From assembly GCA_947470185.1 (NCBI GenBank), contig CANIRZ010000010.1:1-51680 (forward strand): a stretch of 51,680 nucleotides of DNA. Reading direction: 5' to 3'. Both the position numbers and the translations under genes were made by a program. Within the stretch, counting starts at the first letter, position 1. The number at the start of each line of letters is the position of its first letter. Below the pieces are notes generated by a model. The model was not told the DNA's origin. It saw nothing but the letters and a program-made list of their open reading frames with translations, and ran no database searches. Positions 26,939 to 47,824 of this stretch are shown piece after piece. Source of the DNA: Sphingomonadales bacterium (GTDB taxonomy: Bacteria; Pseudomonadota; Alphaproteobacteria; Sphingomonadales; Sphingomonadaceae).

Positions 26939-27592
26939 TTAAGTTTCCGGTGATGACAACGCGCTACTGCGCAAAAACTCAATTGCTTCGCCTTCCGAGA
27001 CGACCTCCGCATATTTGGACTGAAGATCGAATAAATTTGCGTCATGCGGCGCCGAATGGCGGTCGCCACAGGCATCACGAACAACAAAGGGTGCAAAGCC
27101 CGACTGGAGCGCATCCAGTGCGGTTGCGCGCACACATCCCGACGTCGACAGGCCAGTGATAAGCAACGTATCGATGGCCGCGGTCGTGAGGATGTCCGTA
27201 AGCGCAGTTCCAAAAAAGGCCGAGGCAAATTGCTTCGAGATGATGCGTTCGCCATCCAAGGGTTGAAGCGACGGCGGAAATGCGCCGTAGGGCGAACCTT
27301 TCACAAAAACACGGAGCGACGGAATTTTCTTGTAGAATAAACCGCCATCTGCGCCGTCCTTTTCATAGACGACATTTGTGAAAATCACCGGAATGCCGGC
27401 TGCCCGAGCCGCAGCCAAGAGGCGTATGTTGCTCTCCAAAGCATCCTCAACATGGGCGTAAAGAGGCGACGATTTGTCCAAATACGCCATAACAAAATCG
27501 ACGATCAGCAGTGCAGGGCGCTTGCCAAAAGACAAGCGACCATCAAACGCACCAACATAGTTTGCCGCCAGATCGTCGTCCTCTTGTGGCAT
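26939..27592 (-). CDS. Isochorismatase-family cysteine hydrolase, N-carbamoylsarcosine-amidase-like
   Basis: The 217-residue protein has the family triad: D32 (LLIVDFVMAYLD), K120 (RIISKQFASAFFGT) and C153 (GLSTSGCVRATALD). The Lys-to-Cys spacing of 33 residues equals that of Arthrobacter N-carbamoylsarcosine amidohydrolase, and TSGCVRATALDA is the motif of that subgroup. The predicted reaction is N-carbamoylsarcosine to sarcosine, CO2 and ammonia; other ureido or amide substrates are possible. Its start shares a base with the CoA-transferase stop (TGATG). It is the last gene of the hyu operon. Confidence 0.82.
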   Translation of the reverse strand: MPQEDDDLAANYVGAFDGRLSFGKRPALLIVDFVMAYLDKSSPLYAHVEDALESNIRLLAAARAAGIPVIFTNVVYEKDGADGGLFYKKIPSLRVFVKGSPYGAFPPSLQPLDGERIISKQFASAFFGTALTDILTTAAIDTLLITGLSTSGCVRATALDALQSGFAPFVVRDACGDRHSAPHDANLFDLQSKYAEVVSEGEAIEFLRSSALSSPET

Positions 27593-28773
27593 CAGATTGC
27601 GCCTGCCGCCTTCAACCGATCGAGTTCCTGTGCTTCCATACCGAGCAGTTCGACGTAAATCTCGGCATTGTGCTGCCCGACTATAGAGGGTGCAGGCGAC
27701 CGCACGCCGCTTGGCGTCGCGGACATTTTTGGAAAGGCGCCTTGCATTTTCAACTTGCCATAACGCTCGGTCTCGACCTCGATAATGGCATCGCGCGCCT
27801 GAAAATGAGGGTCGGCCAACATCTCGGGTGCGCGGTAAACGCGGCCTGCTGGGATGGAATATTTGATCATCAGTGCGTCCACTTCGTCAACGGTCAACGT
27901 CGCGGTCCATGCATTAATGCGTTCGTCCAGTTCCAACTGATTATGGCCACGCGCCAAATGGGTTGCATAACGTGCGTCGGTGCCAAGTTCAGGCATACCC
28001 ATAGCTTCTGCCAAACGTTGCCACAGCGAGTCTTTGTTCGCGCCAATCATATACTCGCCGTCTTTGCAGATATACACATTGGAAGGCGCAATGCCCTTAA
28101 GGATGGAGCCCGATCGTTCGCGAATGAACCCGCTATGGTCATATTCAGGAACCAGTCCCTCCATGACTTGCAACACGCTTTCATACAAAGCGGCGTCAAT
28201 AACCTGACCCTGACCTGTGACGCTGCGATGGTGCAATGCCGCCAGCACGCCCATGCAACCATAAGTCGCGGTCAGCGTGTCACCAATGGAAACCCCCATG
28301 CGGCTTGGAGGGCGGTCGGGTTCGCCAACGATATAGCGCCAGCCGCCCATGGCCTCGCCAATACCGCCAAACCCTGCTCGGTCCGAATAGGGTCCTGTTT
28401 GGCCATAGCCGGACATGCGTGCAATGATGAGGCTAGGGTTTTCCGCCAAGAGGGTGTCTGGCGCAAAACCCCATTTTTCCATTGTGCCGGGTTTGAAATT
28501 CTCGACCAGAATGTCTGCTTTGCCGATCAACTTGCGGACAAGCGCCTGTCCTTCGGGGACACGCAAATTGGCCGAAACAGATTTTTTGTTGCGCGCTATG
28601 ACTTCCCACTGCACCTTTTCTGCGCCTTGGCCCCAGACACGCATGGGATCACCGGCACCCGGTGGTTCCACCTTGATGACCTCAGCGCCCATATCGCCAA
28701 GCAACTGTCCGCAAAACGGACCAGCAAGCAGCTGGCCGAGTTCAACAACGCGCAACCCCTTTAGTGCGCTCAC
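27592..28773 (-). CDS. CaiB/BaiF class III CoA-transferase
   Basis: The 393-residue enzyme starts at a GTG that overlaps the hyuB stop (GTGA), giving MSALKGLRVVELGQLLAGPFCGQLLGDMGAEVIKVE. The catalytic Asp lies in GVSIGDTLTATYGCMG, and FKPGTMEKWGF and GVLAALHHRSVTGQGQ complete the pattern. Class III enzymes move CoA between carboxylic acids by ping-pong-independent chemistry; donors such as succinyl-CoA are common. With the HMG-CoA-lyase-like gene in the same operon, it could make the CoA ester that the lyase cleaves. The substrate is unknown. Confidence 0.92.
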   Translation of the reverse strand: MSALKGLRVVELGQLLAGPFCGQLLGDMGAEVIKVEPPGAGDPMRVWGQGAEKVQWEVIARNKKSVSANLRVPEGQALVRKLIGKADILVENFKPGTMEKWGFAPDTLLAENPSLIIARMSGYGQTGPYSDRAGFGGIGEAMGGWRYIVGEPDRPPSRMGVSIGDTLTATYGCMGVLAALHHRSVTGQGQVIDAALYESVLQVMEGLVPEYDHSGFIRERSGSILKGIAPSNVYICKDGEYMIGANKDSLWQRLAEAMGMPELGTDARYATHLARGHNQLELDERINAWTATLTVDEVDALMIKYSIPAGRVYRAPEMLADPHFQARDAIIEVETERYGKLKMQGAFPKMSATPSGVRSPAPSIVGQHNAEIYVELLGMEAQELDRLKAAGAI

Positions 28774-30644
28774 TCCGCGGCTTCCAAAGTTGTCCAAACC
28801 GGCTGAACAGGCGCGCTAAGGCCTGTCTCAACTTCGCAATTGGCACGCAATTGTTCAATACTGGGTCCATAATTGAACAGGGAAAGCGCTGCGCGTTCTT
28901 GCCTTAACTTGGCACGCAGCGCGTCGGTGGCGCCAACGTCTACTTCGCCATGCGCATTTGCGATTACGCCATAGGCTTTTGCGCCGGCGACAGTGACAAG
29001 CCCTTGCACGATCTCTTTGCCAACAAGGGCAGGGTCACGATCAAGGGCATCGCCCCAGCCACCGCCGCCCCATGTGATGAAGTGCAACTGATCGCCCTCT
29101 TCTACATGAACGTCTTCAACCTTATTGCCGATAATCTGCGAGCTGCCGTCGGCCTTTTCGAGAATTTTCCGCGCACGTTTACCGGGTTCACCGCCATTGA
29201 CGCCCCATGGAGGCACGAACCAACGATCGTCATGGATCGAAATTGTTCCGCTGGCGAGGAAACGATAGGTCATGTGAATGCCGTTTCCGCCGCGATGCAA
29301 ACCTGCGCCGCCACTGTCAGGTTCTGTTTCATATCGTTCGATCAGCAGCGGGAAGTATCGCTCCAGAAACTCGTTAGGCACATTCGTAAAGCCCGGCCAC
29401 AGCGAGTGACCATCGGGCCCATCGCCCATGGGACGACCTGGAATACCGCCAAAGCCGATTTGGAAGAGTTGGAACCAATCGCCCTTCTTGTCATTGCCCG
29501 AGTAGAACATGTGTGGGCTTGAAGAGAATCCGGCCGCATTTAAGAATTCCGGTGTTTTTTGGCCCAAGAGACCACCCAAAATATCGAAAATGCGACCCAG
29601 CGCGTGGGTGCGACCCGAGAGCGCTGCTGGAAATTTCGGCTTGAGAAGCGACCCGTCCGGAATGCGGACATCGATTAGATCATAAAAGCCATCGTTGAAC
29701 AGAATCTGCGGATCGAAAACCATGATCATGTAAATGCCGAAGAACATCTTGAACATATTCTCGTTCAAGAAGAAGTTGATCGACGCTTGGCTTTGCGGGT
29801 CAGTGCCAGCAAAATCGAGTACAACCTTTTCGCCTTCGCGCCACATGGTGCACTTAATTTTATACGGGCCAGCGCCCATGCCATCGTCACAGATATAATC
29901 TTCGAAACTGACAGGTTCTTCGCCAATTGCCATAGCGATGAGCGATTTCATCGCACGGTGATTGCGCGCGAGCAGTTCTTGCGTGGCAGAGATGTAGACA
30001 TCGTCACCAAAGCGCCCGGCCATTTCGATGACTCGGCGCGCCGCAACCCGGCACGAGGCAATGAGCGCATTGAGATCCGCCTGACACCAATCCGGTTTGC
30101 GGGTCTGATGCATGACCAGCTTCATAAGGTCGTCGTTATACTCGCCCTTTTTCCAAATTTTGACTGGCGGGATACGGACGCCCTCTTCAAAAATCGAACG
30201 GGCATTGATCGGCATTGACCCCACAACCTTACCGCCAATATCGGATTGGTGACCGAACATGGATGTGTAGGCAATCAATCGGCCGTCTTTGAACACGGGT
30301 AAAAGGACGAGCCAGTCGTTTGAGTGGCTGACCGCACCGTCGCAGGAATAAGGATCAGACAGCAGAATCATGTCGCCGTCTTCCAGCGAACCATCCCAGT
30401 TATCCAGAAAGCCGCCAATGAAGCTGCCGAATTGGCCAACAATCATTTTGCCGGTGTGGTCCGCGATTAACGGAAACGCATCGCCCTGCTCCCGAATACC
30501 GGGGGACATTGCTGTGCGCACCAGCGTTGCGTCCATTTCGATGCGGGCATTACGCAGCGCATTTTCAATGATGTCGAGCGTGACGGGATCGATAGCGATC
30601 TTGTTAAAGGGCGTATTGTTTGTTTCAATGATTTGGGCGGGCAT
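28770..30644 (-). CDS. hyuB: Hydantoinase B / oxoprolinase family subunit
   Basis: The 624-residue protein begins IDPVTLDIIENALRNARIEMDATLVRTAMSP and continues with RDQGDAF-like REQGDAFPLIADHTG, the classical HyuB opening. GMGAGPYKIKCTMWREGEKVVLDFAGTDPQS and the C-terminal LHFITWGGGGWGDALDRDP are also diagnostic. It forms an ATP-dependent amidohydrolase or carboxylase with HyuA. Possible substrates are N-methylhydantoin, other hydantoins, 5-oxoproline or a ketone. It lies 13 bp after hyuA and overlaps the CoA-transferase start. Confidence 0.93.
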   Translation of the reverse strand: MPAQIIETNNTPFNKIAIDPVTLDIIENALRNARIEMDATLVRTAMSPGIREQGDAFPLIADHTGKMIVGQFGSFIGGFLDNWDGSLEDGDMILLSDPYSCDGAVSHSNDWLVLLPVFKDGRLIAYTSMFGHQSDIGGKVVGSMPINARSIFEEGVRIPPVKIWKKGEYNDDLMKLVMHQTRKPDWCQADLNALIASCRVAARRVIEMAGRFGDDVYISATQELLARNHRAMKSLIAMAIGEEPVSFEDYICDDGMGAGPYKIKCTMWREGEKVVLDFAGTDPQSQASINFFLNENMFKMFFGIYMIMVFDPQILFNDGFYDLIDVRIPDGSLLKPKFPAALSGRTHALGRIFDILGGLLGQKTPEFLNAAGFSSSPHMFYSGNDKKGDWFQLFQIGFGGIPGRPMGDGPDGHSLWPGFTNVPNEFLERYFPLLIERYETEPDSGGAGLHRGGNGIHMTYRFLASGTISIHDDRWFVPPWGVNGGEPGKRARKILEKADGSSQIIGNKVEDVHVEEGDQLHFITWGGGGWGDALDRDPALVGKEIVQGLVTVAGAKAYGVIANAHGEVDVGATDALRAKLRQERAALSLFNYGPSIEQLRANCEVETGLSAPVQPVWTTLEAAE

Positions 30645-30657
30645 GTCGTTAGCCTCC

Positions 30658-32706
30658 TCAAGCCAGATTGATCAGGATGTTGCCGACCTTGTCGACGATC
30701 GCGACGCAGCCAGTTTCAATGAGTGTGGTCGAATCCATTTCGACGACGATAGCTGGCCCGGGAATGATATCCCCCTGACGCAACTTGGATCGATCATAAA
30801 TGACCGCAGCCTGTTCCTTGCCATCCATCCACAAAACATGGTCGCGCATTTTTGCAGCAGCCGGATTTCCATCGCCCTTAGGCAATTCTGCAGCAGGCAA
30901 GTCCAAAGCTTGCCCCAATGCGACCGCGCGCAAGTTCACGATTTCGTGCGGGGTATCCATGTTGAACGTGAACAACCGAAGGTGCTCTTCGTCGAACCGC
31001 TTCAATATGCCCGCGACGCCGTCACGTTCCAAAACGTCAGGCGTGATCGTCAAGGGCACTTCAAACGCCTGACCGGCATACCGCACGTCGATTTCAAATT
31101 CGCTGCTGATATCGGCGTCATTGATGCCGTCGGACTGCAATTGTGCGCGGGTCTGCTCTGCCATTTCCTTCAGAATGGCAACAAGTTCGGCCGCATCAGT
31201 GGTTGTGGCCAAACGCGAAAAGCTGCGCGCAGTCTCCGTCCGCATGCGCGTTGTGGCATCGCCCAACGCACATAACACGCCCGGTGACACGGGCGATATG
31301 GCGGGCCAGCTACCCATCAGCCTTGCCACGGCATTGACGTGAAGTGGTCCGGCACCGCCGAAGCCCATCAGCGCAAAATGCCGCGGGTCATAGCCTTGCT
31401 GAACCGAGATCATGCGCAACGCGCCGAACATGTTTTCGTTGACGATATCAATGATGCCGCGCGCCGCGGCCATCAAGTCGATGCCAAGCGCATCGGCGAT
31501 GGTCTGCACCGCCTTTTTTGCACCTTCACGGTCAAGTTGAAAGGTTCCGCCCAATAGATTTTCGGGCAGATAGCCAAGCACGACATTTGCGTCCGTGACC
31601 GTAGGTGCTTCGCCGCCCTTGCCATAGGCCACAGGACCTGGAACCGCGCCTGCAGACTGCGGACCAACTCGCAGGGCCTTGGTCAGTTCTGGCACATAGG
31701 CGATTGACCCGCCGCCTGCGCCGACGGTCTTCACATCCAATGAAGATGCGCGCACCGCCAAATGGCCGACTTCGGTCGTCCGCACGCGGCGTGGTTCAAG
31801 ATTTTCGATCAGCGCAACATCGGTTGATGTTCCCCCCACATCAAGGGTGAGGATATTTTTAATACCTGCATTTTTACCAACCCAAAGCGCACCGGTGACG
31901 CCGCCAGCAGGCCCTGACATCAATATGTCGACGGGATGCTCCTGCGCCTTTTGCGCCGACATCAGTCCGCCATCGGACCGCAATAGCGACAATTTGCCGC
32001 TAAAACCGGCGTCGGCAAGCTTCCTGCGCAGGTTGGAGATATATTTGCCGACGACCGGGCGCACTGCGGCGTTTGCAACGGTTGTCAACGTCCGTTCATA
32101 TTCCTGCATTTCAGGCAGCACTTCATGGCTGAGCGACACAGGGATATTTGGCAGCAGTTCTCGGGCCAATTCGCCCACGCGGGCCTCATGTGCGCCGTTT
32201 GTATATGCGTTCATGAAGCTGACCGTGATTGCCTCGACGCCTTGCGCCTTCAGATAGGCCAAAGCGGTCCTGGCGGAAGCTTCATCCAAGGGGCGCACTT
32301 CGCCGCCTTGCGCATTCATCCGTCCGCCAACGGTTACGGTATCTTCCAAAGCGGCCAAGGGCGTTGGCTTTGGCCAGATAATCCATGCGGCAAGCCCACC
32401 TGGGACATAAGAGCGCGCTATCTGCATGATGTCGCGATATCCCTCGGTCACGATAAGGCCAACGCGTGCGCCCTTGCCCTCAAGCACCGCGTTGGTTGCG
32501 ACGGTTGTGCCGTGGAGGAAATATTCTATCCCGGTTGCATCGACGCCTGCGGTGGCACAGATGGCGTTCACGCCGGTCAGGATACCTTCGCTGCTATCAT
32601 GCGGCGTAGACGGCGTCTTGTGCCGCCAGAACGCGCCAGTGTCCGCGTTGAATAACAATAGGTCAGTGAATGTTCCACCGACGTCAACGCCCAAACGATA
32701 CCCCAT
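30658..32706 (-). CDS. hyuA: Hydantoinase A / oxoprolinase family ATP-dependent subunit
   Basis: The 682-residue protein starts MGYRLGVDVGGTFTDLLLFN (ATG at 32706, GAGGGAGA 5 nt upstream; a longer frame to 32793 is rejected because it overlaps the lyase gene). The Hydant_A_N phosphate motif is followed by LTLDVGGTSTDVALI, the second ATP-binding motif, near residue 280. VTEGYRDIMQIARSY is a further family segment. Together with HyuB it should couple ATP hydrolysis to ring opening or carboxylation. In creatinine catabolism such a pair opens N-methylhydantoin to N-carbamoylsarcosine. Confidence 0.93.
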   Translation of the reverse strand: MGYRLGVDVGGTFTDLLLFNADTGAFWRHKTPSTPHDSSEGILTGVNAICATAGVDATGIEYFLHGTTVATNAVLEGKGARVGLIVTEGYRDIMQIARSYVPGGLAAWIIWPKPTPLAALEDTVTVGGRMNAQGGEVRPLDEASARTALAYLKAQGVEAITVSFMNAYTNGAHEARVGELARELLPNIPVSLSHEVLPEMQEYERTLTTVANAAVRPVVGKYISNLRRKLADAGFSGKLSLLRSDGGLMSAQKAQEHPVDILMSGPAGGVTGALWVGKNAGIKNILTLDVGGTSTDVALIENLEPRRVRTTEVGHLAVRASSLDVKTVGAGGGSIAYVPELTKALRVGPQSAGAVPGPVAYGKGGEAPTVTDANVVLGYLPENLLGGTFQLDREGAKKAVQTIADALGIDLMAAARGIIDIVNENMFGALRMISVQQGYDPRHFALMGFGGAGPLHVNAVARLMGSWPAISPVSPGVLCALGDATTRMRTETARSFSRLATTTDAAELVAILKEMAEQTRAQLQSDGINDADISSEFEIDVRYAGQAFEVPLTITPDVLERDGVAGILKRFDEEHLRLFTFNMDTPHEIVNLRAVALGQALDLPAAELPKGDGNPAAAKMRDHVLWMDGKEQAAVIYDRSKLRQGDIIPGPAIVVEMDSTTLIETGCVAIVDKVGNILINLA

Positions 32707-32717
32707 TAATATCTCCC

Positions 32718-33647
32718 TCAACCTATTTTCGGAAATGCTGGCGCCTGCGCCACCATGCCGGGTAGTTTTCTGCCCATAATGTCCGATAGCCATTGGCTCG
32801 CCTCAATAAGGCTATCCAAATTCATTCCCGTGGACACGCCTGCACGTTCGAGCATGTAGACAACGTCCTCGCTTGGCACATTGCCCGCTGCACCCGGTGC
32901 AAACGGACATCCACCTAGCCCGCCTAGCGACGCATCGATAACGCTCGCGCCCGCACCTACAGCGGCCCAAACATTGGCCAAGCCGGTGTTGCGGGTGTTG
33001 TGGAAATGCACCCGAACGGGCAGCGGATTTACTGCTTTCTGTATCTGCTCGACCAGCCGCGCCACTTGAGCGGGGTTTCCAACGCCAATGGTATCAGCAA
33101 GCGCAATTTCAACTGGGCCAGCTTCGGCAATGGCCACGGCCATATCAATGATGCGCTGGTCAGACACTTCGCCTTCAAAAGGACAACCAAAAGATGCAGC
33201 TATGGTGCATTGCGCGGTGCGCCCTTCGGCTTTGGCGAGCGCAATAATGGCCTTCGCTGCCTCGACAGATTCGTTGCTACTTTGCCCTTGATTGGCCATT
33301 GCGAATGTATCGGTTGCGACCGCGACGGCACCAAGCTGATCTATTTTCTCGGTCGCGATGGCCCGCTCTGCGCCGCGCAGGTTCATGACTAGGCCAATAA
33401 ATGTTACATCGCCGCGGTCCGGCAGGCCTGCGCAAACATCCTCTGCGTCCGCCATTTGCGGGACGCGTTTGGGGTTCACAAAGCTGGTAGCCTCAATTCG
33501 GCGCGCCCCAGCCGCAATCGCGCGATTGATTAAAGCGAGTTTATCGTCAGTCGATACCAGAACAGCCTCGTTTTGAAGGCCGTCGCGTGGTCCAACTTCG
33601 ACAAATTCAATATGCTTGGGAATAATCATCGCCGATGTTGATGCCAT
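32718..33647 (-). CDS. HMG-CoA-lyase-like acyl-CoA lyase
   Basis: This DRE-TIM-type lyase (309 residues from ATG 33647) has VEVGPRDGLQNE with the catalytic Arg-Asp, LADTIGVGNP, the metal-binding HFHNTRNTGLAN and the Cys loop LGGCPFAPGAAGNV. The HMGL family also includes lyases for other hydroxyacyl-CoAs, such as citramalyl-CoA-like substrates. Its partner in the operon is a CoA-transferase rather than leucine-degradation genes, so a role outside leucine catabolism is likely. ATG 33629 (MIIPKHIEFV) also fits the family N-terminus. The GntR-type palindrome lies only 2 bp upstream of 33647. Confidence 0.88.
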   Translation of the reverse strand: MASTSAMIIPKHIEFVEVGPRDGLQNEAVLVSTDDKLALINRAIAAGARRIEATSFVNPKRVPQMADAEDVCAGLPDRGDVTFIGLVMNLRGAERAIATEKIDQLGAVAVATDTFAMANQGQSSNESVEAAKAIIALAKAEGRTAQCTIAASFGCPFEGEVSDQRIIDMAVAIAEAGPVEIALADTIGVGNPAQVARLVEQIQKAVNPLPVRVHFHNTRNTGLANVWAAVGAGASVIDASLGGLGGCPFAPGAAGNVPSEDVVYMLERAGVSTGMNLDSLIEASQWLSDIMGRKLPGMVAQAPAFPKIG

Positions 33648-33648
33648 A

Positions 33649-33660
33649 ATTGTATACAAA
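33649..33660. promoter_or_regulatory. Candidate GntR operator, copy 1
   Basis: ATTGTATACAAA contains the perfect 10-bp palindrome TTGTATACAA (33650-33659). It lies between the gntR stop and the lyase gene, directly upstream of the ATG. The same 12 bp recur in inverted orientation at 34376-34387. Short AT-rich palindromes centred on GTATAC are usual for FCD-type GntR regulators. Confidence 0.7.
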
Positions 33661-33671
33661 ATCAAACAGGA

Positions 33672-34346
33672 TTATGCGGCCAAATTGGCTTTCCGGATTT
33701 CAGTGTCGGTAGAGTGCGCTTCGGCATAAGCATGGAACGCGCGCCGAATATGTGCTGTCATTACCGCAGCGGCCCAATCACCGTCGCGATTATCAAAAGC
33801 GATCAGCAATTCATCATGTTCATGGTGCGAGCGGCGCAGGTTTTCGAGGTCATATTGTCGCGCTGTGCGCAGTATAACCGGTTGTTCTGTTACCTGCATA
33901 AGCATGTTCGCCAATCGCTCTGACGCGGCCGCTTCAAGGATTGTTGCGTGAAACAACCGGTTACTGTCGATGAAGCGTGGTACATCGGGACGACTGGCAT
34001 CAATTGCCTGCTTCAGCTTGCCGTTATGATCTCGCATGCGCGCCAGTTGGTCTCGCGTAATGCGCAAAGCTGCCCGCTTTGCAGCGTGCGCTTCCAGCAT
34101 CGCGCGCAACTCGAACGCATCTTTTAGATCGTCCAGTGACCAATTTGTCACAAAGCTGCGTTGCGATTCGTTGCGCCGAACGAACATTTCCGTCTCAAGC
34201 CGCCGAAGCGAATCTCGCACCGGAGTGCGCGATACACCGCACAATTCTGCCAAAGCCTCCTCGCGAATTTGCGATCCAGGTTGCAACTCACCAGACAAGA
34301 TCATGCTGCGAATGTGATTATATGCACGATCCGATGCCCGCGACAT
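33672..34346 (-). CDS. GntR-family transcriptional regulator, FCD (FadR) subgroup
   Basis: The 224-residue protein has a winged helix in residues 1-70 (YNHIRSMILSGELQPGSQIREEALAELCGVSRTPVRDSLRRLE) and an all-helical FCD ligand domain behind it. FCD metal-site candidates include the Asp/His residues in DSNRLFHATILEAA and HHEHDELLIAFDNRD, so the effector may be a carboxylate. The gene leads the minus-strand hyu operon and faces the TonB receptor. Palindromes sit in front of it and directly behind it, which suggests it represses itself, the lyase-hyu genes and the receptor. Confidence 0.93.
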   Translation of the reverse strand: MSRASDRAYNHIRSMILSGELQPGSQIREEALAELCGVSRTPVRDSLRRLETEMFVRRNESQRSFVTNWSLDDLKDAFELRAMLEAHAAKRAALRITRDQLARMRDHNGKLKQAIDASRPDVPRFIDSNRLFHATILEAAASERLANMLMQVTEQPVILRTARQYDLENLRRSHHEHDELLIAFDNRDGDWAAAVMTAHIRRAFHAYAEAHSTDTEIRKANLAA

Positions 34347-39780: not shown

Positions 39781-40995
39781 GTGCTGCACCTCGCCCCGAT
39801 CGCCAACTGGCTTGCCAATGACCGAAAAGGCCATACGCTGCCGCGTGGATTGTATGTCAGCGACGAGGCGTTCGCATTCGACACGCAGGTCATGCTTAAA
39901 TCGGTCTGGTTATATGCCTGCACCGTCGCGCATGTGAAAAATGCGGGCGATTATTTCGTGTTTGAGCTGGCGGGTAACTCTATCATCATCGTGCGTGGAC
40001 GTGACAATGAAGTTCGCGCATTCTGGAACAGTTGCCGCCACCGCGGCGCGAAAATCTGTCTCGAACAGAACGGTCGTGCGCCGCGGTTGATGTGCCCTTA
40101 TCATCAATGGACTTATGGCCTCGACGGCAAGCTTCTGGCTGCGCGTAGCATGGCAGAGGATTTCGACAAGGCAGATCATGGCCTGAACCCGGTTGCGCTG
40201 GAAAATGTCGGTGGGCTGATTTTCATCTGCCTAAGCGATAATCCGCCGCCGATTGATCGTGTGAAAGCGGACATTGCGGATCAAATCGCAGTGTATGACC
40301 TCGAAAAGCTAAAGGTCGCGGTGCAGGATGATTATATCGAAGACGCCAATTGGAAACTGGTGATGGAGAATAATCGCGAATGCTATCATTGCGATGTTGG
40401 TCATCCCGAATTGATCAGCGTGCTCGGCACCACTGGCTTTGGCAAGGATGCGCCTGCCGATGATTATCTGGAAACAAAGCGTACGGAATGGCAGGCGTTG
40501 GGCATTGACCATGATGTAATCGAGTTTCCCGATGGCTGGTGGCATCGCGTCGCGCGTTTGGCATTGGCAAACGGCGCTGTGACTCAGTCGATAGATGGCA
40601 AGCTGGCCTGCCAGAAACTGATTGGGCCATTCAATGCGCCGGAAACATCGAGCCTCTCTGTCTGGACCCAGCCCAACAGTTGGCATCATTTTTGTTGCGA
40701 CCATGTGGTCACATTTTCGCTAACTCCGATTGGCCCTGACAAAACTCTTCTGCGGACGAGTTGGCTGGTGCATGAAGATGCTGTTGAAGGGATTGATTAT
40801 AATCCTGATCATCTCGCCGCGCTGTGGCGGGCAACAAACGTGCAAGACGGACATTTTTCTATGGTCAACCATCAAGGCATTGCGAATGACGGCTATGTAC
40901 AAGGGCCCTATGCAGTCGAGGAAAATCTGGTTGAGGATTTCAAAGATTTCTACGTCGACCGAGCCAAGGCGGCGTTGAAGGCGGAAACAATATGA
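39781..40995 (+). CDS. Rieske oxygenase, glycine-betaine monooxygenase (GbcA)-like
   Basis: The 404-residue protein has the [2Fe-2S] ligands C85-x-H87 (NSCRHRGAK) and C105-x2-H108 (CPYHQWTYG). The mononuclear iron site shows H203 and H208 in MENNRECYHCDVGHPEL. A Glu (E200) stands where most ring-hydroxylating oxygenases have a bridging Asp, as in demethylating oxygenases of quaternary amines. The late WLVHEDAVEGIDYNPDHLAALW segment resembles GbcA. Expected reaction: glycine betaine + O2 to dimethylglycine + formaldehyde. GTG start 5 bp after the preceding stop. No reductase partner gene is in the window. Confidence 0.87.
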   Translation: MLHLAPIANWLANDRKGHTLPRGLYVSDEAFAFDTQVMLKSVWLYACTVAHVKNAGDYFVFELAGNSIIIVRGRDNEVRAFWNSCRHRGAKICLEQNGRAPRLMCPYHQWTYGLDGKLLAARSMAEDFDKADHGLNPVALENVGGLIFICLSDNPPPIDRVKADIADQIAVYDLEKLKVAVQDDYIEDANWKLVMENNRECYHCDVGHPELISVLGTTGFGKDAPADDYLETKRTEWQALGIDHDVIEFPDGWWHRVARLALANGAVTQSIDGKLACQKLIGPFNAPETSSLSVWTQPNSWHHFCCDHVVTFSLTPIGPDKTLLRTSWLVHEDAVEGIDYNPDHLAALWRATNVQDGHFSMVNHQGIANDGYVQGPYAVEENLVEDFKDFYVDRAKAALKAETI

Positions 40996-41327
40996 CGACA
41001 CTTCCCATATCAGGCTCGATCAAGATGACGGGTGATAGCTGGAAGCCGGGCAAGCGGTCCGGTGAGACGAACCTTGCGCTTATCGATGACCCGCGCGGAT
41101 ACCGCACAATGGTAACGAAAATTGCCCCCGGCCCCTTGGGCGAGATGCACGCACATGACGAGATTGAGCAAATCTATGTCATTGAAGGTGATTTTTTTGA
41201 TGATGATGCCAGCTATGGCCCCGGCGATTTCGTGCTGCGTATGCCGGGTGCGATGCACCGCGCAGGCAGCAAAAACGGCTGTACGATGGTAATCGTTTAC
41301 GCTCCTTTGGTTGCGGGTGCCGCATGA
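40992..41327 (+). CDS. Single-domain cupin, 111 aa
   Basis: A complete metal cupin: motif 1 has H53-x-H55-x3-E59 and a Gly six residues on (EMHAHDEIEQIYVIEGDF), and motif 2 has PGAMH with H89. Its ATG overlaps the Rieske stop by four bases and its stop overlaps the soxB start by four, so it is locked into the operon. The role is unknown. Candidates are binding or detoxifying formaldehyde adducts, helping oxygenase assembly, or a step on a side substrate. No DNA-binding domain is present. Confidence 0.85.
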   Translation: MTTLPISGSIKMTGDSWKPGKRSGETNLALIDDPRGYRTMVTKIAPGPLGEMHAHDEIEQIYVIEGDFFDDDASYGPGDFVLRMPGAMHRAGSKNGCTMVIVYAPLVAGAA

Positions 41328-42577
41328 CCCGCTTCAGCGCATTCAGCCTCTTTGCCAAAGCGTTAAGCGGGCATCAGGATTGGCCCGAACAATGGCCCGA
41401 CGCGGCACCCAAGCCCGCTTATGATGCGATCATCGTCGGCGGAGGTGGGCATGGTCTTGGCGCGGCATATTATCTCGCAAAGAAATACGGGATTACCAAT
41501 GTTGCAGTGCTTGAAAAGGGCTGGATCGGTGGCGGCAATACCGGACGCAACACAACGATCATCCGTTCCAACTATCTCTATGATGAAAGCGCGCATCTTT
41601 ATGATCACGCGGTCAAGCTGTGGGATGGCCTCAGTCAGGAACTCAATTACAACATCATGTATTCCAAGCGTGGCGTCATGATGCTCGCGCACAATGTGCA
41701 TGATGTGCAAAGCCTTCAGCGCCATATCAACGCCAACCGGCTGAATGGCGTTGATAATGAATGGCTCACGCCCGAACAGGCCAAAGCTTATTGTCCGCCT
41801 TTGAATATCGCACCAGATGCGCGGCATCCGGTATTGGGTGCGGCGCTGCAACGGCGTGGCGGCACGGCGCGTCATGACTCGGTCGCTTGGGGCTATGCCC
41901 GTGCGGCAGCTGCTTTGGGTGTTGATATCATTCAGAATTGCGCTGTCACGGGTATCCGCCGCGGTGCCGATGGCGCGGTAGAGGGTGTGGAAACAACGCG
42001 CGGCTATATCGCCTCCAAGCGCGTGGGCGTTTCGGCGGCGGGCAACAGCTCGGTAGTTATGCAAATGGCTGGCCTCGATTTTCCTCTTGAAAGCTACCCG
42101 TTGCAGGCACTGGTTTCCGAGCCCATCAAGCCGACTTTCCCCTGCGTGGTGATGTCTAACACCGTCCACGCCTATATGAGCCAATCGGACAAAGGCGAGT
42201 TGGTGATCGGTGCTGGAACGGACCAATATGTGAGCTATTCGCAACGCGGCGCACTGCAGATTGTTGAACATACGCTGGCTGCAATTTGCGAGATTTTCCC
42301 GATTTATCGGCGGATGCGGATGCTGCGGACATGGGGTGGTATCGTCGATGTGACACCCGATCGCTCACCGATATTGGGCAAGACGCCGGTCAAGGGGCTC
42401 TACGTCAATTGTGGCTGGGGCACGGGTGGGTTTAAGGCCACGCCGGGCGCGGGAGATTTGCTGGCCTATACGATGGCCAAAGACGAACCGCACAAAATCA
42501 ACGCCCCGTTCAATCTTGACCGTTTTCGCAATGGTCGGTTGATCGACGAAGCGGCAGCAGCAGCAGTGGCGCACTAA
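41324..42577 (+). CDS. soxB: Sarcosine oxidase beta subunit
   Basis: The 417-residue flavoprotein carries the FAD motif IIVGGGGHGLGAAYYLAKKYG near residue 37, EKGWIGGGNTGRNTTIIRSNY, and GGTARHDSVAWGYARAA, whose His184 fits the covalent FMN site of SoxB. The C-terminal NCGWGTGGFKATPGAG is also characteristic. Beta binds sarcosine and oxidises it to glycine, giving hydrogen peroxide and, with folate, 5,10-methylene-tetrahydrofolate. Gene order B-D-A-G is canonical. It is coupled by ATGA to the cupin gene. Confidence 0.96.
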   Translation: MTRFSAFSLFAKALSGHQDWPEQWPDAAPKPAYDAIIVGGGGHGLGAAYYLAKKYGITNVAVLEKGWIGGGNTGRNTTIIRSNYLYDESAHLYDHAVKLWDGLSQELNYNIMYSKRGVMMLAHNVHDVQSLQRHINANRLNGVDNEWLTPEQAKAYCPPLNIAPDARHPVLGAALQRRGGTARHDSVAWGYARAAAALGVDIIQNCAVTGIRRGADGAVEGVETTRGYIASKRVGVSAAGNSSVVMQMAGLDFPLESYPLQALVSEPIKPTFPCVVMSNTVHAYMSQSDKGELVIGAGTDQYVSYSQRGALQIVEHTLAAICEIFPIYRRMRMLRTWGGIVDVTPDRSPILGKTPVKGLYVNCGWGTGGFKATPGAGDLLAYTMAKDEPHKINAPFNLDRFRNGRLIDEAAAAAVAH

Positions 42578-42578: not shown

Positions 42579-42851
42579 ATGATACTGATCCATTGCCCTT
42601 ATTGTGACGAAAAGCGTCCCGAGATCGAATTCGTGAATGCAGGCCAAGCACATATATCGCGGCCACTCGACCCATCAAGTCAAACCGATGAGGAGTGGGA
42701 GGCCTATCTTTTTATCCGCGCTAACCCGCGTGGGCGGCACCATGAACGCTGGCGCCATACGTATGGTTGCGGGCGTTTCTTTAATGCGGTGCGCGACACG
42801 GTGAGCGATAAATTTGAAACAACATATAAAGCTGGGGAGCCACGCCGATGA
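42579..42851 (+). CDS. soxD: Sarcosine oxidase delta subunit
   Basis: The 90-residue subunit has the zinc site C6-x2-C9 (IHCPYCDEKRPEIEF) with H60 and C64 in RWRHTYGCGRFF, and the conserved NPRGRHHERW segment. SoxD is structural and zinc-binding within the heterotetramer. It starts 1 bp after soxB stops and overlaps soxA by ATGA. Confidence 0.95.
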   Translation: MILIHCPYCDEKRPEIEFVNAGQAHISRPLDPSSQTDEEWEAYLFIRANPRGRHHERWRHTYGCGRFFNAVRDTVSDKFETTYKAGEPRR

Positions 42852-45709
42852 GTGGCTTTCGTCTTGAAACTGGCGGCCGCGTCGACCGAGGTCAGACAGT
42901 CCAGTTCAGCTTTGACGGTAAGAGCTATCAAGGCCTGGCAGGAGACACTTTAGCGTCAGCCTTGTTGGCAAACGGCGTCATGCTGTTCGGCAGATCCTTT
43001 AAATATCACCGCCCGCGCGGCGTCATGGCAGCAGGCAGCGAGGAGCCAAATGCTCTTATTTCGGTGGATCGCGGGCCGGGCCGTTTCACGCCCAATTTGC
43101 GCGCCACAGGGGTTGAAATATATCCCGAGCTAAAGGCGGTTAGCCAAAATCGTTGGCCATCGCTGAAAGCGGATTTTGGTGCGATTAATGACCGGCTGGG
43201 GATGTTCTTTCCGGCAGGTTTTTATAACAAAACCTTTATGTGGCCACGTTCATTTTGGGATAAAGTCTACGAACCAGCCATTCGCAAAATGGCAGGACTT
43301 GGCGATGCACCGACCGCCGAAGATCCTGACCATTATGCAGCAACCTATGCCCATTGCGACCTGTTGATCGTCGGCGCAGGACCCGCCGGAATTGACGCCG
43401 CGCTTGGCTATATGGATACGAACAAGCGCATCATTTTGATCGATGAGCAGGATGAATTGGGCGGCGGCGCATTGGCCGACCCTGCGTTATGGCCATGGCT
43501 AGAGCGTAGCCATAAGGCGCTGATCGATGCGCCCAATGTGACAATACTGACCCGCACGACGGCCTTCGGCTATTATCACGACAATTTCATCGGCGCAGTG
43601 CAGCGGTTGACAGATCACCTCCCTGAATTGGGCGATGCGCCGCGGGAGAAATTGTGGCGTATTAGGGCAGGTGAAGTTGTCCTTGCGCAAGGTGCGATCG
43701 AACGACCGCTGGTTTTCGATGGCAATGATACGCCCGGCGTGATGCTGTCTTCTGCCGCCAGAAGTTTCGCCAATCGCTATGGCGTTGCGGTTGGCAAGGC
43801 TGTCGTGTTGATGGCTTCGCATGACAGCGGCTGGCATGATGTCTTTGCACTGGCCAAAGCCGGCGTTGGGATTGCGGCGATTATTGATGTGCGCGAAAGC
43901 GTAGATAGCGCGCTCATGCATGAGGCTGAGCGGCTGGGAATTGCTGTGCACCTAAACCACAGCGTTATGGGCGTAACCGGCAGGCACAGCGTCCGTGCGG
44001 TGCAGATATGCAACAATGGCGACTATCTGGGTCGCCGCATCGATTGTGATGCGGTGTTGATGGCGGGTGGCTGGACGCCAAGCGTGCATTTATGGTCGCA
44101 CAGCAAGGGCAGCCTGAAATGGCGCGATGACCTGGGCGCATATGTCCCCGATCTGCCAAATGAAAATGTCGTCTGTGTTGGCGGATGTTCGGGCGATTGG
44201 GATTTTGGCACGGGCGCGATTATCGATATGTTGCCGACGCCTAAGGACCAAAGCCGTATAAAGGCATTCGTCGATTTCCAGAATGATGTGACGGCAAAAG
44301 ACATCAAGCTTGCGGTGCGTGAGGGCTTTCGCTCCATTGAGCATATCAAGCGGTACACTACCAACGGCATGGCAACCGATCAGGGCAAAACATCGAACCT
44401 CAACGGTTTGCAAATCGCCTCGTCTGCGCTGAACAAGCCTGTCGCCGATATCGGGCTCACCAGCTTTCGTCCGCCCTACACGCCGCAAACATTTGGGGCA
44501 TTGGCCGGACATGCCAAAGGGGCGTTGTTCCAACCCACACGGACAACCAATATCGACAGCTGGGCGCAAGCGCACGGCGCAGTGTTTGAGCTCGTCGCGC
44601 AGTGGCGAAGGGCACGTTACTTCCCCAAACCGGGTGAGGATATGCATGCGGCCGTGAACCGCGAGTGCGTTGCCGTGCGTTCATCGGTTGGTATTTTTGA
44701 CGCCTCTACGCTGGGCAAAATTGAAGTTGTAGGTCCAGATGCGGCCGAATTCCTCAACCGGATGTATACCAATCCATGGAAGGCGCTGGAGCCGGGTCGC
44801 TGCCGTTATGGGCTACTTTTGAAGGAGGACGGCTTCATTACTGACGACGGCGTTTCGGCACGGCTGGCACCGGATCGTTTTCACCTGACCACGACAACTG
44901 GTGGCGCGGCGCGCGTGCTGAATATGATGGAGGATTATCTCCAGACCGAATGGCCAGATCTTGATGTCTGGTTGACCAGCACGACCGAGCAATATGCGGT
45001 CATCGCGCTGCAAGGCCCTAATGCGCGCAAATTGCTTGAGCCGCTTGTGGAAGGCATTGATCTATCTGAAGAGGCCTTTCCCCATATGGCAATCCGCGAG
45101 GGCATGATTTGCGGCATTCCAACGCGCCTGTTCCGGGTCAGCTTCACTGGCGAATTGGGCTTCGAGATTAATGTACCGACGGCTTATGGCCGTGCGCTAT
45201 GGGAACGGTTGATGGCGCAAGGCGCGCAATATGACGTCACGCCTTACGGCACTGAGGCGATGCACGTTTTGCGTGCCGAAAAAGGTTTCATCATTGTGGG
45301 GCAAGATACGGACGGCACGGTAACGCCCTTTGATGCCGGCCTCGATTGGGCAGTGGGTAAGAAAAAGCCTGATTTTGTGGGTAAGCGATCCATGGTGCGT
45401 CCTGACATCGTCGCGCCGGGGCGCAAACAGTTGGTCGGACTGCTAACCGATGATCCGAATGTGGTTTTGGAAGAAGGCGCGCAGATCGTAGCCGACCCCA
45501 AACAGGCGGTGCCGATGACGATGATTGGCCATGTGACGTCTTCGTATTGGAGCCAAACGCTTGGCCGATCTATTGCGTTGGCGCTTGTTGCTGGCGGACA
45601 TGAAATGACGGGCGCTACGCTCCATATTCCCATGCCAGGGAAGACGCATACTGCGAAAGTCAGCGGCCTTGTCTTTTACGACCCAGAAGGAGCACGGCTG
45701 CATGTCTGA
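42848..45709 (+). CDS. soxA: Sarcosine oxidase alpha subunit
   Basis: The 953-residue subunit begins with a 2Fe-2S-like-fold domain lacking the cluster (FKYHRPRGVMAAGSEEPNALI), followed by an NAD-binding pyridine nucleotide-disulfide fold (DLLIVGAGPAGIDAALGY near residue 170, LVFDGNDTPGVMLSSAA). A C-terminal GcvT-type folate domain starts near residue 590 (ECVAVRSSVGIFDASTLGKIEVVGPDA) and contains FTGELGFEINVPTAYG. The length is close to the usual 965-1000. It should channel the formaldehyde equivalent to tetrahydrofolate. Confidence 0.96.
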   Translation: MSGFRLETGGRVDRGQTVQFSFDGKSYQGLAGDTLASALLANGVMLFGRSFKYHRPRGVMAAGSEEPNALISVDRGPGRFTPNLRATGVEIYPELKAVSQNRWPSLKADFGAINDRLGMFFPAGFYNKTFMWPRSFWDKVYEPAIRKMAGLGDAPTAEDPDHYAATYAHCDLLIVGAGPAGIDAALGYMDTNKRIILIDEQDELGGGALADPALWPWLERSHKALIDAPNVTILTRTTAFGYYHDNFIGAVQRLTDHLPELGDAPREKLWRIRAGEVVLAQGAIERPLVFDGNDTPGVMLSSAARSFANRYGVAVGKAVVLMASHDSGWHDVFALAKAGVGIAAIIDVRESVDSALMHEAERLGIAVHLNHSVMGVTGRHSVRAVQICNNGDYLGRRIDCDAVLMAGGWTPSVHLWSHSKGSLKWRDDLGAYVPDLPNENVVCVGGCSGDWDFGTGAIIDMLPTPKDQSRIKAFVDFQNDVTAKDIKLAVREGFRSIEHIKRYTTNGMATDQGKTSNLNGLQIASSALNKPVADIGLTSFRPPYTPQTFGALAGHAKGALFQPTRTTNIDSWAQAHGAVFELVAQWRRARYFPKPGEDMHAAVNRECVAVRSSVGIFDASTLGKIEVVGPDAAEFLNRMYTNPWKALEPGRCRYGLLLKEDGFITDDGVSARLAPDRFHLTTTTGGAARVLNMMEDYLQTEWPDLDVWLTSTTEQYAVIALQGPNARKLLEPLVEGIDLSEEAFPHMAIREGMICGIPTRLFRVSFTGELGFEINVPTAYGRALWERLMAQGAQYDVTPYGTEAMHVLRAEKGFIIVGQDTDGTVTPFDAGLDWAVGKKKPDFVGKRSMVRPDIVAPGRKQLVGLLTDDPNVVLEEGAQIVADPKQAVPMTMIGHVTSSYWSQTLGRSIALALVAGGHEMTGATLHIPMPGKTHTAKVSGLVFYDPEGARLHV

Positions 45710-46208
45710 CGTCCTCATACGTAATGAACCCGTGGCCGAAACACCATATGTGGCGGCGGGTGTCACGATCAGCCTTGCTTTACCTATGCAACGGCTCGCG
45801 CTGCGCGCGCGGCGCGCAGAGGACCTGGAAACTGTGTTAAAGGTGACATTGCCTCGGAAAATCGGCGCGTCCGAAGGCGGCATTGCCTGTCTTGGCCCTG
45901 ATGAATGGTATCTGCGTGCCCAAGCTGGCGCTACGATCCCGACAGCTTCCGGGCTGCCAGTCGCTATTACGGACATTAGCGATCGATCGATATGCCTCGT
46001 TTTAGAAGGTCCGCGCGCAGCAGAAATTTTGATGTCGGGATGCCCTTTAGATCTGAATAAATTTGCGGTCGGTCAGGTTGCGCGCACGATATACGAAACA
46101 GTCGAAATCATTATCATTCGCGAGGCTGAAGATCGCTTCCATGTTGAGTTGTGGCGCAGTTTTGCAGCATGGTTTTGGATAGCGATGACAACCGCGGCAC
46201 GCCATTGA
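45702..46208 (+). CDS. soxG: Sarcosine oxidase gamma subunit
   Basis: From the ATG at 45702 (8-bp overlap with soxA) the product is 168 residues, MSDVLIRNEPVAETPY... . IACLGPDEWYLRAQ, ITDISDRSICLVLEGPRAAEILMSGCPLDL and the terminal HVELWRSFAAWFWIAM are typical SoxG elements. An in-frame start at 45669 lies deep inside soxA and is rejected. It is somewhat shorter than the usual ~200 residues. It completes the heterotetramer. Confidence 0.92.
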   Translation: MSDVLIRNEPVAETPYVAAGVTISLALPMQRLALRARRAEDLETVLKVTLPRKIGASEGGIACLGPDEWYLRAQAGATIPTASGLPVAITDISDRSICLVLEGPRAAEILMSGCPLDLNKFAVGQVARTIYETVEIIIIREAEDRFHVELWRSFAAWFWIAMTTAARH

Positions 46209-46240
46209 CCGATCAGTGAAGCACCTTGGAGGAGGGTTCA

Positions 46241-47824
46241 ATGGCATCTTGGGATAAGATGATAGATCTGGGCAATTACGGCCAGTCCAATCGCAACTGG
46301 GGCGGGATGCACATCAACCCTGCAGTCTTTTTCCCGACGGCATTCATTTCGTTTGCTGTGATAATGTTCAGCCTGATCGCCCCGAAAGCGTCAGCGGACC
46401 TGTTCGCGGCATTACGCGGTGGCGCGGTTCAGCATTTCGACTGGTTCTTCATGATGTCCGGCAACCTGCTGTTGCTGTTTTGTGTTGTTGTTGCGCTCTC
46501 GCCGCTTGGAAAAATTCGATTGGGCGGCAAAGGCGCAGTGCCCGACTATTCGCGGCTGTCATGGTTCGCGATGCTGTTCGGCGCGGGGATGGGCATCGGG
46601 CTAGTTTTCTATGGCGTGGGTGAACCAGTGACCCATTTCACATCTTCGTTGGCGGGTGGTCCGGCGGCGCCATTGGGTGGAGCAGTCGGCAACCCAGACG
46701 CCGCACGCAGCTTGGCGATGGCGGCGACGATCTTTGATTGGGCGCTGCACCCTTGGGCAATATTCGCCGTGACGGGTCTTGCACTGGCGGTCTTCAATTT
46801 CGATTTTAACATGCCGTTGTCGATGCGCTCGGCATTCTACCCTTTGTTCGGCAAGGCGGTTTGGGGGCGGACGGGTGATGCTATCGAAGTGCTTGCCGTG
46901 CTCGCCACTATATTTGGACTGGCCACATCGCTTGGGCTCGGCGCGCAGCAAGCCATGGCGGGGATTACCTATCTGTACGACGTCGCGAGTTCGCCGCTTA
47001 CAATCTTGGCGCTGATCCTTGTGATGGCAGCTGTCACCTTTCTGTCAATCCGGGGCGGCATTAACCGTGGCATCCGGATATTAAGTGAGGTGAACATGTG
47101 GGTCGCCTTCGCGCTGCTGGTATTTATATTGGCGACCGGATCAACATTTCAGTTGCTTGGCGACCTCGCGACGAACATTTACAACTATCTCGCATTGCTC
47201 CCGGCATTGTCCAACCCGGTTGGCCGCACTGACACGGGTTTTTATAACGACTGGTCTGTGTATTATTGGGCGTGGTGGATAAGCTGGGCTCCATTTGTTG
47301 GTATGTTCATGGCGCGTATTTCACTGGGACGGACGGTACGTGAATTTATTGCTGGCGCTGTGATTTTACCCAGCTTGCTTGGCATATTGTGGCTGACCAT
47401 TTTTGGCGATGCCAGTATCGCCCAAATTGTCGCAGGCAATGGCGCAGACCTGACCAAAGCGTCGCTTGATACGCAATTATTTGTGCTGCTCGGCGCGCTC
47501 CCTTGGGCGCAATTTACGTCTTTTGTCGCGATTGGCCTTATCCTGATCTTCTTCGTAACAGGCTGGGATTCCGGCACGCTGGTGATTGATACTATGACGG
47601 CGGGTGGACGCACAGATACGCTGCTTAGGCAAAAGACGATCTGGCTTGTGGCCGTTGGCGGTATTGGTATCGTCCTGTTGCTTAGTGGCGGCCTCACTTC
47701 GCTTCAAGCAGGTGCAATTGCCACTGGCCTGCCATTGGCTCTCATCTTGCTCGGTATGTGCATCGGCACGCTAAAGGGCTTACTGGTCCTGCACCGAAAT
47801 CCAGACAACCCCGAACAACTCTAA
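46241..47824 (+). CDS. BCCT-family betaine/choline/carnitine transporter
   Basis: The 527-residue protein has the BCCT pattern of twelve helices, with GMGIG (116-120) in helix 3, as in Na+-coupled betaine carriers such as BetP. The aromatic signature YYWAWWISWAPFVGMFMARIS is the substrate and ion region. GAGGAGGG precedes ATG 46241; an upstream TTG at 46226 is rejected. The C-terminus stops soon after the last helix (LHRNPDNPEQL), lacking the long charged osmosensing tail of BetP. Uptake for catabolism rather than osmoprotection is therefore inferred. Confidence 0.94.
   Translation: MASWDKMIDLGNYGQSNRNWGGMHINPAVFFPTAFISFAVIMFSLIAPKASADLFAALRGGAVQHFDWFFMMSGNLLLLFCVVVALSPLGKIRLGGKGAVPDYSRLSWFAMLFGAGMGIGLVFYGVGEPVTHFTSSLAGGPAAPLGGAVGNPDAARSLAMAATIFDWALHPWAIFAVTGLALAVFNFDFNMPLSMRSAFYPLFGKAVWGRTGDAIEVLAVLATIFGLATSLGLGAQQAMAGITYLYDVASSPLTILALILVMAAVTFLSIRGGINRGIRILSEVNMWVAFALLVFILATGSTFQLLGDLATNIYNYLALLPALSNPVGRTDTGFYNDWSVYYWAWWISWAPFVGMFMARISLGRTVREFIAGAVILPSLLGILWLTIFGDASIAQIVAGNGADLTKASLDTQLFVLLGALPWAQFTSFVAIGLILIFFVTGWDSGTLVIDTMTAGGRTDTLLRQKTIWLVAVGGIGIVLLLSGGLTSLQAGAIATGLPLALILLGMCIGTLKGLLVLHRNPDNPEQL

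Follow-up and report, generated by a model that had tools for sequence, protein, structure and literature searches.

A probable ATP-dependent ring-opening catabolic unit juxtaposed with betaine-type genes in a Sphingomonadales contig

CapAB, N-methylhydantoinase and 5-oxoprolinase are two-part enzymes of the HyuA/HyuB family that share ATP motifs and four metal ligands, while NicF, HMG-CoA (hydroxymethylglutaryl-CoA) lyase and the GbcA/DMGDH/SoxBDAG set belong to the nicotinate pathway, leucine catabolism and betaine demethylation, respectively. Nicotinate fermentation ends with a 2,3-dimethylmaleate hydratase and a 2,3-dimethylmalate lyase. Here, we analyzed a 51,680-base window, the whole of contig C10 (CANIRZ010000010.1) from a 1.48-Mb, 63% complete assembly (GCA_947470185.1) of a Sphingomonadales bacterium, which carries two catabolic arms (Table 1). 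Arm 1 encodes HyuA, HyuB, an amidase of the isochorismatase superfamily, a class III CoA-transferase and an HMG-CoA-lyase-like (HMGL-like) lyase; arm 2 has the gene set of betaine demethylation plus a BCCT transporter. The arms are two independent catabolic units juxtaposed by local rearrangement, and arm 1, as judged from its genes and their motifs, probably encodes an ATP-dependent ring-opening catabolic pathway. Every enzyme family of arm 1 is known, but the combination is apparently undescribed: in the open literature, we found no paper joining hydantoinase, isochorismatase and CoA transferase, whether or not hydroxymethylglutaryl-CoA lyase is added to the set.

Comparison with the described systems revealed differences for both arms. 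Arm 1 shares the family, ATP motifs and metal ligands of CapAB and its relatives, but its operon partners differ and the window's HyuA scores 538 against the cut-off of 1000 of the NCBIfam CapA equivalog. Hydratases of the LeuCD family and lyases of the PrpB/isocitrate lyase (PrpB/ICL) family, the types found at the end of nicotinate fermentation, also lie beside HyuAB in some loci; in contrast to that route, more of the loci related to arm 1 (hereafter module loci) have a CoA-transferase with an HMGL-like lyase, and HyuAB would open the ring. No recurrent nicotinate genes were noticed near the module, although no search by name was made. The oxygenase and the transporter of arm 2 score below equivalog cut-offs, and no reductase partner was found among the 37 window open reading frames (ORFs) scanned. 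An earlier, sequence-only reading had named these genes and assigned their strands, and all of them are present as stated (by Pfam and NCBIfam scans, and for SoxD by position, size and a CPYC motif only); its GbcA and SoxG calls hold at the family level but fall short of the GbcA equivalog cut-off and the SoxG NCBIfam cut-off, respectively. All scanned proteins match their Pfam family at E ≤ 1.9e-7 (SoxG being the weakest), a content far beyond chance.

The same reading placed the arms back to back around a common regulator and receptor and proposed that they may meet at sarcosine, with HyuAB and the amidase converting N-methylhydantoin to sarcosine and arm 2 oxidizing the latter to glycine. 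The strands do run back to back, but the GntR regulator and the TonB receptor belong to arm 1: across the genus and the wider order, they mostly stay together with the arm-1 enzymes, and arm 2 lies elsewhere. Specifically, of 45 genomes in the genus, the arms are joined in only 3: G000, G006 (at L030) and G017, in which they are joined across a contig end that separates the lyase (L152) from HyuA (L029). The module (HyuA at ≥86% identity, fragments included) is present in 24 of the 45 genomes and a close GbcA (≥80%) in 26; with presence entered manually, 19 genomes have both, 5 the module only, 7 GbcA only and 14 have none of the two (p = 0.003 by Fisher test, with no correction for relatedness; p = 0.005 without G000). 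Such an association within the genus speaks for the sarcosine proposal and counts against full independence of the arms, yet may reflect shared lineage. Among the 19 genomes with both, 12 show ~10 kb of unrelated DNA past the receptor, while the four that are neither joined nor of this kind (G007, G025, G028 and G037) have contig ends or broken genes at the locus. Outside the genus, a module-type HyuA (55–82% identical) was found in 22 of 54 genomes, none of which (0 of 22) has a GbcA at ≥80%; a Rieske homologue at 41% occurs there in G096.

Proximity was also analyzed across 125 module loci, the window included (129 read; L080, L148, L150 and L151 dropped for a HyuA below 850 bits). Of these loci, 80 are the best of at least 587 relatives and constitute a sample rather than a census; phyla were taken from record titles, and ORFs were picked mechanically, such that absent genes may be prediction losses. 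Because some of the 125 loci are closely related and at least one is duplicated (L147 = L034), non-redundant figures are preferred below. Homologues of DMGDH, GbcA, SoxA, SoxB and SoxG at ≥60% query coverage lie near only 1 of the 124 other loci (L030), and a BCCT homologue near 2 (L030 and L070). The coverage demand passes over a distant Rieske relative near L086 (34% over 229 residues) but over no other of the cases checked, and a SoxB-like flavoprotein (29%) lies near L150, a locus below the HyuA cut-off. This count is preferred to the 8-kb tally of unit content below, whose limit misses SoxB even in the window and which has no model for SoxA or DMGDH.

The palindrome TTGTATACAA likewise goes with arm 1 only: two exact copies occur in the 51,680 bases and none in arm 2. 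Across 85 non-redundant loci, we counted 33 exact copies versus 0.68 expected from base composition, and the other 159 palindromes of equal G+C reached a maximum of 8 and an average below 1 (in all 125 loci, redundant ones included, 84 copies versus 0.96 expected). Nearly all of the copies (31 of 33) are found no more than 200 bases from a module gene's mechanically assigned 5′ end, among them those in Roseiflexus (L075) and in a proteobacterial metagenome-assembled genome (MAG; L081); overall, TTGTATACAA was found in Proteobacteria and one Chloroflexota locus, and the copy between regulator and receptor, divergent genes whose starts are 86 bases apart, recurs in 23 of the 26 loci in which this stretch was inspected. 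Its presence correlates with that of the FCD regulator (17 of 30 loci with the regulator versus 4 of 55 without, p = 1e-6), and TTGTATACAA is probably the operator of the arm-1 GntR regulator and would mark arm-1 promoters. Two matches in the window would by themselves not be remarkable once one mismatch is allowed (shuffle mean 0.93; two reached in 28 of 100 shuffles); the weight of TTGTATACAA rests on the other loci. Scans of the window for promoters (8 versus 10.8 in shuffles) and terminators (16 versus 18.5) showed no excess. The true start of the lyase gene is probably an internal ATG at about 33629, as its alignments begin at residue 13–22.

Arm 1 proved to be a recurrent unit. Across 64 non-redundant loci flanked by 5 kb or more at both ends, the genes found within 8 kb of HyuA were HyuB (63), the CoA-transferase (48), the amidase (46), the HMGL-like lyase (40), an FCD regulator (25) and a TonB receptor (21). 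The CoA-transferase and the lyase, which had been taken as a hint that the substrate is undescribed and bears a carboxylic side chain, are thus recurrent members of the unit, and that hint stands. A genome scan and plasmid searches revealed related units in Proteobacteria, Actinomycetota, Bacillota, Chloroflexota, Acidobacteriota and haloarchaea. Plasmid-borne examples come from Novosphingobium, Acidiphilium, Geobacillus, Haladaptatus, Rubrobacter and Natronomonas, with the best plasmid-borne relatives of the window's HyuA in Sphingomonadaceae, while MAGs and genomes contributed units from Terriglobia, Roseiflexus, Nocardioidaceae, Rhodococcus, Arthrobacter, SAR92, Luminiphilus, Alteromonas and Halogranum. 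In some loci, such as that of Immundisolibacterales (L072), HyuAB is the sole part of the core.

Further enzymes accompany the unit at some loci. LeuC and LeuD homologues are found together in the sequence retrieved for 9 of the 109 loci tabulated (L027, L028, L057, L062, L077, L081, L124, L132 and L143). A housekeeping LeuC, present in the genome of the window and over the cut-off in 40 of the 45 genomes of the genus, could provide the hydration step at loci without their own hydratase. A PrpB/ICL-type lyase occurs in 11 of the 109 loci. Eight of them (L068, L071, L079, L083, L094, L107, L109 and L112) lack both a CoA-transferase and a full HMGL match (L109 has a weak one of 103 bits), and L080 has the CoA-transferase only; in a stricter set, none of 4 PrpB/ICL-type loci holds both CoA-transferase and HMGL-type lyase (p = 0.02). 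Among the PrpB/ICL-type lyases, matches to prpB stay below the cut-off; that of L083 retains a KKCGH motif and resembles methylisocitrate lyase, petal death protein and 2,3-dimethylmalate lyase. The neighbor tally covered 129 of 294 ORFs (305 selected, 11 of ≥900 aa omitted), and 25 of the 142 families found were viewed; the most frequent (MFS, 4; DAO, EamA and Sugar_tr, 3 each) give no pointer to the substrate, and a rare partner may be missed. The short enzyme list, together with the lack of other recurrent partners in the scanned part, suggests a small exogenous substrate.

Several accessory features were observed among the module loci. Specifically, L025, L026 and L133 combine HyuAB with FAD oxidases, an enone reductase and an aldehyde dehydrogenase (and, in two of them, an MmgE/PrpD protein) while the lyase and CoA-transferase are missing; HyuAB of L025 and L026 is 78–79% identical to that of the window and lies on plasmids. 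These loci represent a different pathway variant in Sphingobium/Sphingomonas. A family with an S-adenosylmethionine (SAM) methyltransferase domain recurs near the module in L073, L088, L089, L097, L126, L129 and L138, in most cases near a small protein (no Pfam match in two tested). In some relatives (L049, L059, L091, L104, L105, L135 and L139), SnoaL-like and Asp/Glu-racemase-fold proteins lie between receptor and regulator. We considered whether the racemase-fold protein (F63) is a maleate isomerase, but two copies tested have no NCBIfam match and eight copies share no conserved cysteine column, and it was not used as evidence. Just past arm 1 in the window, a threonine-aldolase-like enzyme and an EamA transporter (24881–26838) adjoin the unit in 1 of the 124 other loci (L029 of G017). 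The TonB receptor matches pesticin, iron and heme receptors only weakly and mostly in the plug region, which is uninformative as to its substrate.

The ATP motifs of CapA and the metal ligands Asp41, His99, Asp102 and His124 of CapB are named in PMC8453981. The window's HyuA has all three CapA-type ATP motifs (DVGGTFTD at 37, DVGGT at 318 and GAVPGP at 382), and HyuB Asp55, His107, Asp110 and His132 align with the four CapB ligands. As with all residue comparisons here, these rest on sequence alignment. The window amidase shows Asp32, Lys120, Cys153 and Arg178, and in 67 of 99 amidase matches (those of ≥240 bits, from 50 non-redundant loci) Asp/Lys/Cys are kept in 67 of 67, Arg in 66, Thr-Ser-Gly-Cys in 67 and a His at the NicF position in 60. 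NicF, which we take to be the maleamate amidohydrolase of structure 3ot4, shares all of these motifs at a mean identity of 39% (n = 67). In comparison, the N-carbamoylsarcosine amidase 1nba has Ala-Ala-Gly-Cys and a Val at the His position, and Ala-Ala-Gly-Cys occurs in 0 of the 67 module amidases, which argues against the route to sarcosine.

The lyase retains the catalytic set of HMG-CoA lyase and differs at neighboring positions (residue numbers are those of the human enzyme). In 88 of 94 loci (those of ≥350 bits, 52 of them non-redundant), R41, D42, E72, H233, H235 and N275 are kept in 88 of 88 and C266 in 87, while Gly203 is changed to Ala in 87, Ser201 is retained in only 4 and position 174 is Ala in 68. 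Human and Pseudomonas HMG-CoA lyases share Cys174, Ser201 and Gly203 near the active site; of four reference structures, 1ydo and 6nds are without Cys174, and 6nds shares the Gly203 change.

From the gene content, conservation, motifs and active-site differences, we infer a substrate class and an order of steps. With about even confidence, we propose that arm 1 is a conserved small-ring pathway, leading from an imide or lactam via a substituted maleate or malate to CoA-dependent cleavage, independent of the betaine-type arm 2. The substrate would enter through the TonB receptor, and HyuAB would use ATP to open a cyclic imide (or lactam) built on the carbon skeleton of a substituted maleate or malate. 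The NicF-like amidase would hydrolyze the half-amide to ammonia and the dicarboxylate, which, if the ring was unsaturated, a LeuCD-type enzyme (encoded nearby in some loci, a housekeeping enzyme in the others) would hydrate. The class III CoA-transferase would then form a 2-hydroxy-2-alkylsuccinyl-CoA, and the HMGL-like lyase would make a retro-Claisen cut to an alpha-keto acid (e.g., pyruvate) and an acyl-CoA; loci with a PrpB-type lyase may cleave directly without CoA. An alkylmaleate/malate frame is preferred over HMG or an amino acid mainly because the LeuCD-type hydratase and PrpB-type lyase of other loci are what the conversion of alkylmaleate to alkylmalate and its cleavage without CoA would call for.

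Several findings weigh against this proposal. To our knowledge, no enzyme activity is known for any member of the arm-1 module, and plain imides can be hydrolyzed without ATP. Among the 64 loci, 18 have no detected amidase, and in 21 no lyase of either type lies within 8 kb. Most loci have no LeuCD nearby, and the one pair tested (L081) passes the ordinary leucine-biosynthesis cut-offs, so the LeuCD genes may be leucine genes that lie nearby by chance (proximity was uncontrolled). In addition, L093 and L124 carry a PrpB/ICL-type lyase as well as the CoA-transferase and an HMGL-type lyase, so the replacement of one lyase by the other is not strict. The closest solved HyuA chain (7hk5, 447 bits, compared with 414 bits for 6yra) is labelled N-methylhydantoinase. 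Finally, the nearest reference for the amidases is 26st, labelled N-carbamoylsarcosine amidohydrolase, in 47 of 67 cases, NicF in 20 and 1nba in none; as 26st also has the Thr-Ser and His motifs, the lack of Ala-Ala-Gly-Cys cannot by itself exclude N-carbamoylsarcosine activity.

The same structure labels favor a second explanation, in which a substituted hydantoin is opened, the amidase removes the carbamoyl group and the resulting amino acid reaches the CoA steps after an unlinked deamination. The racemase-fold protein of some sphingomonad loci, whose fold is that of Asp/Glu/hydantoin racemases, also fits this idea, but its missing NCBIfam match and cysteine column do not, and no aminotransferase or ammonia-lyase family appeared among the recurrent neighbors viewed; overall, we regard this explanation as unlikely. 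A glutarimide-type ring (e.g., 3-methylglutaconimide) would instead lead to HMG-CoA, from which a true HMG-CoA lyase would release acetoacetate and acetyl-CoA. The window's lyase indeed passes the PRK05692 cut-off, and its CoA-transferase resembles a succinate--hydroxymethylglutarate CoA-transferase (9br7, 206 bits, among its solved relatives). However, residues near the active site that are common to the human and Pseudomonas enzymes are altered across the module family, and in several loci a PrpB/ICL-type lyase, of a family that cleaves 2-hydroxy acids, replaces the CoA-transferase and HMGL pair, which leaves the glutarimide route improbable.

Another possibility is an aromatic lactam such as dioxindole-3-acetate, from auxin oxidation, which HyuAB would open to an aminophenyl-malate, followed by CoA transfer and cleavage to aminophenylglyoxylate and acetyl-CoA. 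Dioxindole acetate combines a lactam ring with a carboxylic side chain, its breakdown would use HyuAB, the CoA-transferase and the lyase, and the hydantoinase-like hydrolase IaaCE of Aromatoleum is aligned with CapB in PMC8453981. The amidase, though, is not needed for an aromatic amine product, and no indole oxygenase family was seen among the recurrent neighbors viewed. IaaCE reportedly opens an indole-acetate-derived lactam. The aerobic iad pathway (PMC12633357) comprises the Rieske enzyme IadCDE, an acyl-CoA synthase, a thiolase, an alcohol dehydrogenase and an amidase, of which arm 1 has none but an amidase of another family, and the available portions of two auxin papers (PMC9613470 and PMC11630574) contain no hydantoinase or CoA-transferase term. 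We therefore give an auxin-derived lactam little credence. The sarcosine route has even less, having been rejected on linkage, palindrome and amidase motif and leaving the recurrent CoA-transferase and lyase unexplained, even though the co-occurrence within the genus, the labels of the closest HyuAB and amidase structures, and the annotation of the N. capsulatum orthologue as N-carbamoylsarcosine amidohydrolase in a plasmid record remain as counterpoints. Riboflavin catabolism was dismissed, as the accessible text of PMC12746152 contains no hydantoin, isochorismatase or CoA transferase term.

Arm 2, for its part, probably serves ordinary glycine-betaine-type catabolism, as suggested by its gene families, with BCCT uptake, Rieske demethylation and DMGDH-like and sarcosine oxidase steps leading to glycine. 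The best solved match of its oxygenase, 3vca, is presumably the stachydrine demethylase Stc2. Beside the LysR gene, a PETase-like alpha/beta hydrolase (48992–50311) travels with arm 2 in congeners. In G020, G032, G035 and G041, arm 2, with its LysR and hydrolase genes, faces a second Rieske/sarcosine-oxidase-like cluster or part of one; in the congener loci L153, L154 and L157, the cluster facing arm 2 includes a Rieske oxygenase 40–42% identical to GbcA and a second SoxB/SoxA pair. The window contig ends soon past the hydrolase, before any second Rieske cluster.

Table 1. Features of the two arms in the 51,680-base window
Feature	Coordinates	Strand	Evidence or remark
Isochorismatase-superfamily amidase (proposed half-amidase; cysteine hydrolase)	26939..27592	-	PF00857 132 bits; best solved relatives 26st, NicF 3ot4, 1nba
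Class III CoA-transferase	27592..28797	-	PF02515 409 bits
HyuB, predicted metal-site subunit of ATP-dependent lactam/imide/hydantoin hydrolase	28770..30644	-	PF02538 483 bits
HyuA, predicted ATP-binding subunit	30658..32793	-	PF01968 292 bits, PF05378 166 bits
HMG-CoA-lyase-like acyl-CoA lyase (HMGL-like)	32718..33665	-	PF00682 150 bits; PRK05692 306 bits, cut-off 246
Palindrome TTGTATACAA, exact, just upstream of lyase start	33650..33659		probable GntR operator
GntR/FCD regulator, arm 1	33672..34346	-	PF00392 + PF07729
Palindrome TTGTATACAA, exact, between divergent regulator and receptor genes	34377..34386		sequence match
TonB-dependent receptor, arm-1 unit	34433..36946	+	PF00593, PF07715; stays with arm 1 in relatives
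DMGDH-like flavoprotein with folate-binding domains	37260..39776	+	DAO + FAO_M + GCV_T + GCV_T_C
GbcA/Stc2-like Rieske oxygenase	39781..40995	+	NF058607 411 bits, under equivalog cut-off 670; 3vca best solved match, 331 bits
SoxB, sarcosine oxidase beta subunit	41324..42577	+	TIGR01373 710 bits, cut-off 529
Probable SoxD, 90 aa	42579..42851	+	position, size, CPYC motif only
SoxA, sarcosine oxidase alpha subunit	42848..45709	+	TIGR01372 1403 bits, cut-off 1164
SoxG-like gamma subunit	45669..46208	+	TIGR01375 92 bits, under cut-off 144; PF04268 32 bits, over 21
BCCT betaine-type transporter	46226..47824	+	PF02028 506 bits; NF047988 451, under 650; TIGR00842 408.7, just over 407.55
LysR-type regulator	48006..48995	+	adjoins arm 2 in congeners

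Returning to the proposed small-ring pathway, one speculative and, in our estimate, rather unlikely candidate for its substrates is the alkylmaleimides (hematinic acid, methyl-ethyl-maleimide and methyl-vinyl-maleimide), stable compounds in which the decay of chlorophyll, heme and bilins ends; arm 1 and its relatives would then form a widespread pathway for feeding on them. HyuAB with ATP would open the hydrolysis-resistant imide, the amidase would trap the maleamate and a LeuCD-type enzyme would hydrate the product, after which either the CoA-transferase and lyase or a PrpB-like lyase would release pyruvate together with glutaryl-, butyryl- or comparable acyl groups. A search of the open literature for bacterial catabolism of hematinic acid or alkylmaleimides gave nothing among the matches listed, many of which concerned other chemistry or biodegradation in general; this is a weak negative.

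Public records can label the module's amidase as N-carbamoylsarcosine amidohydrolase. Two papers on sponge symbionts reconstruct creatinine routes on the basis of labels for N-methylhydantoinase and N-carbamoylsarcosine (COG0145 and PF00857 are used in one of the papers), and labels of this sort could mislead wherever the genes belong to the arm-1 module. The defined enzyme set and the narrow range of candidate substrates make the true function of the unit directly testable. If the alkylmaleimide idea is true, the pathway would be a carbon and nitrogen sink for the decay of tetrapyrrole pigments.

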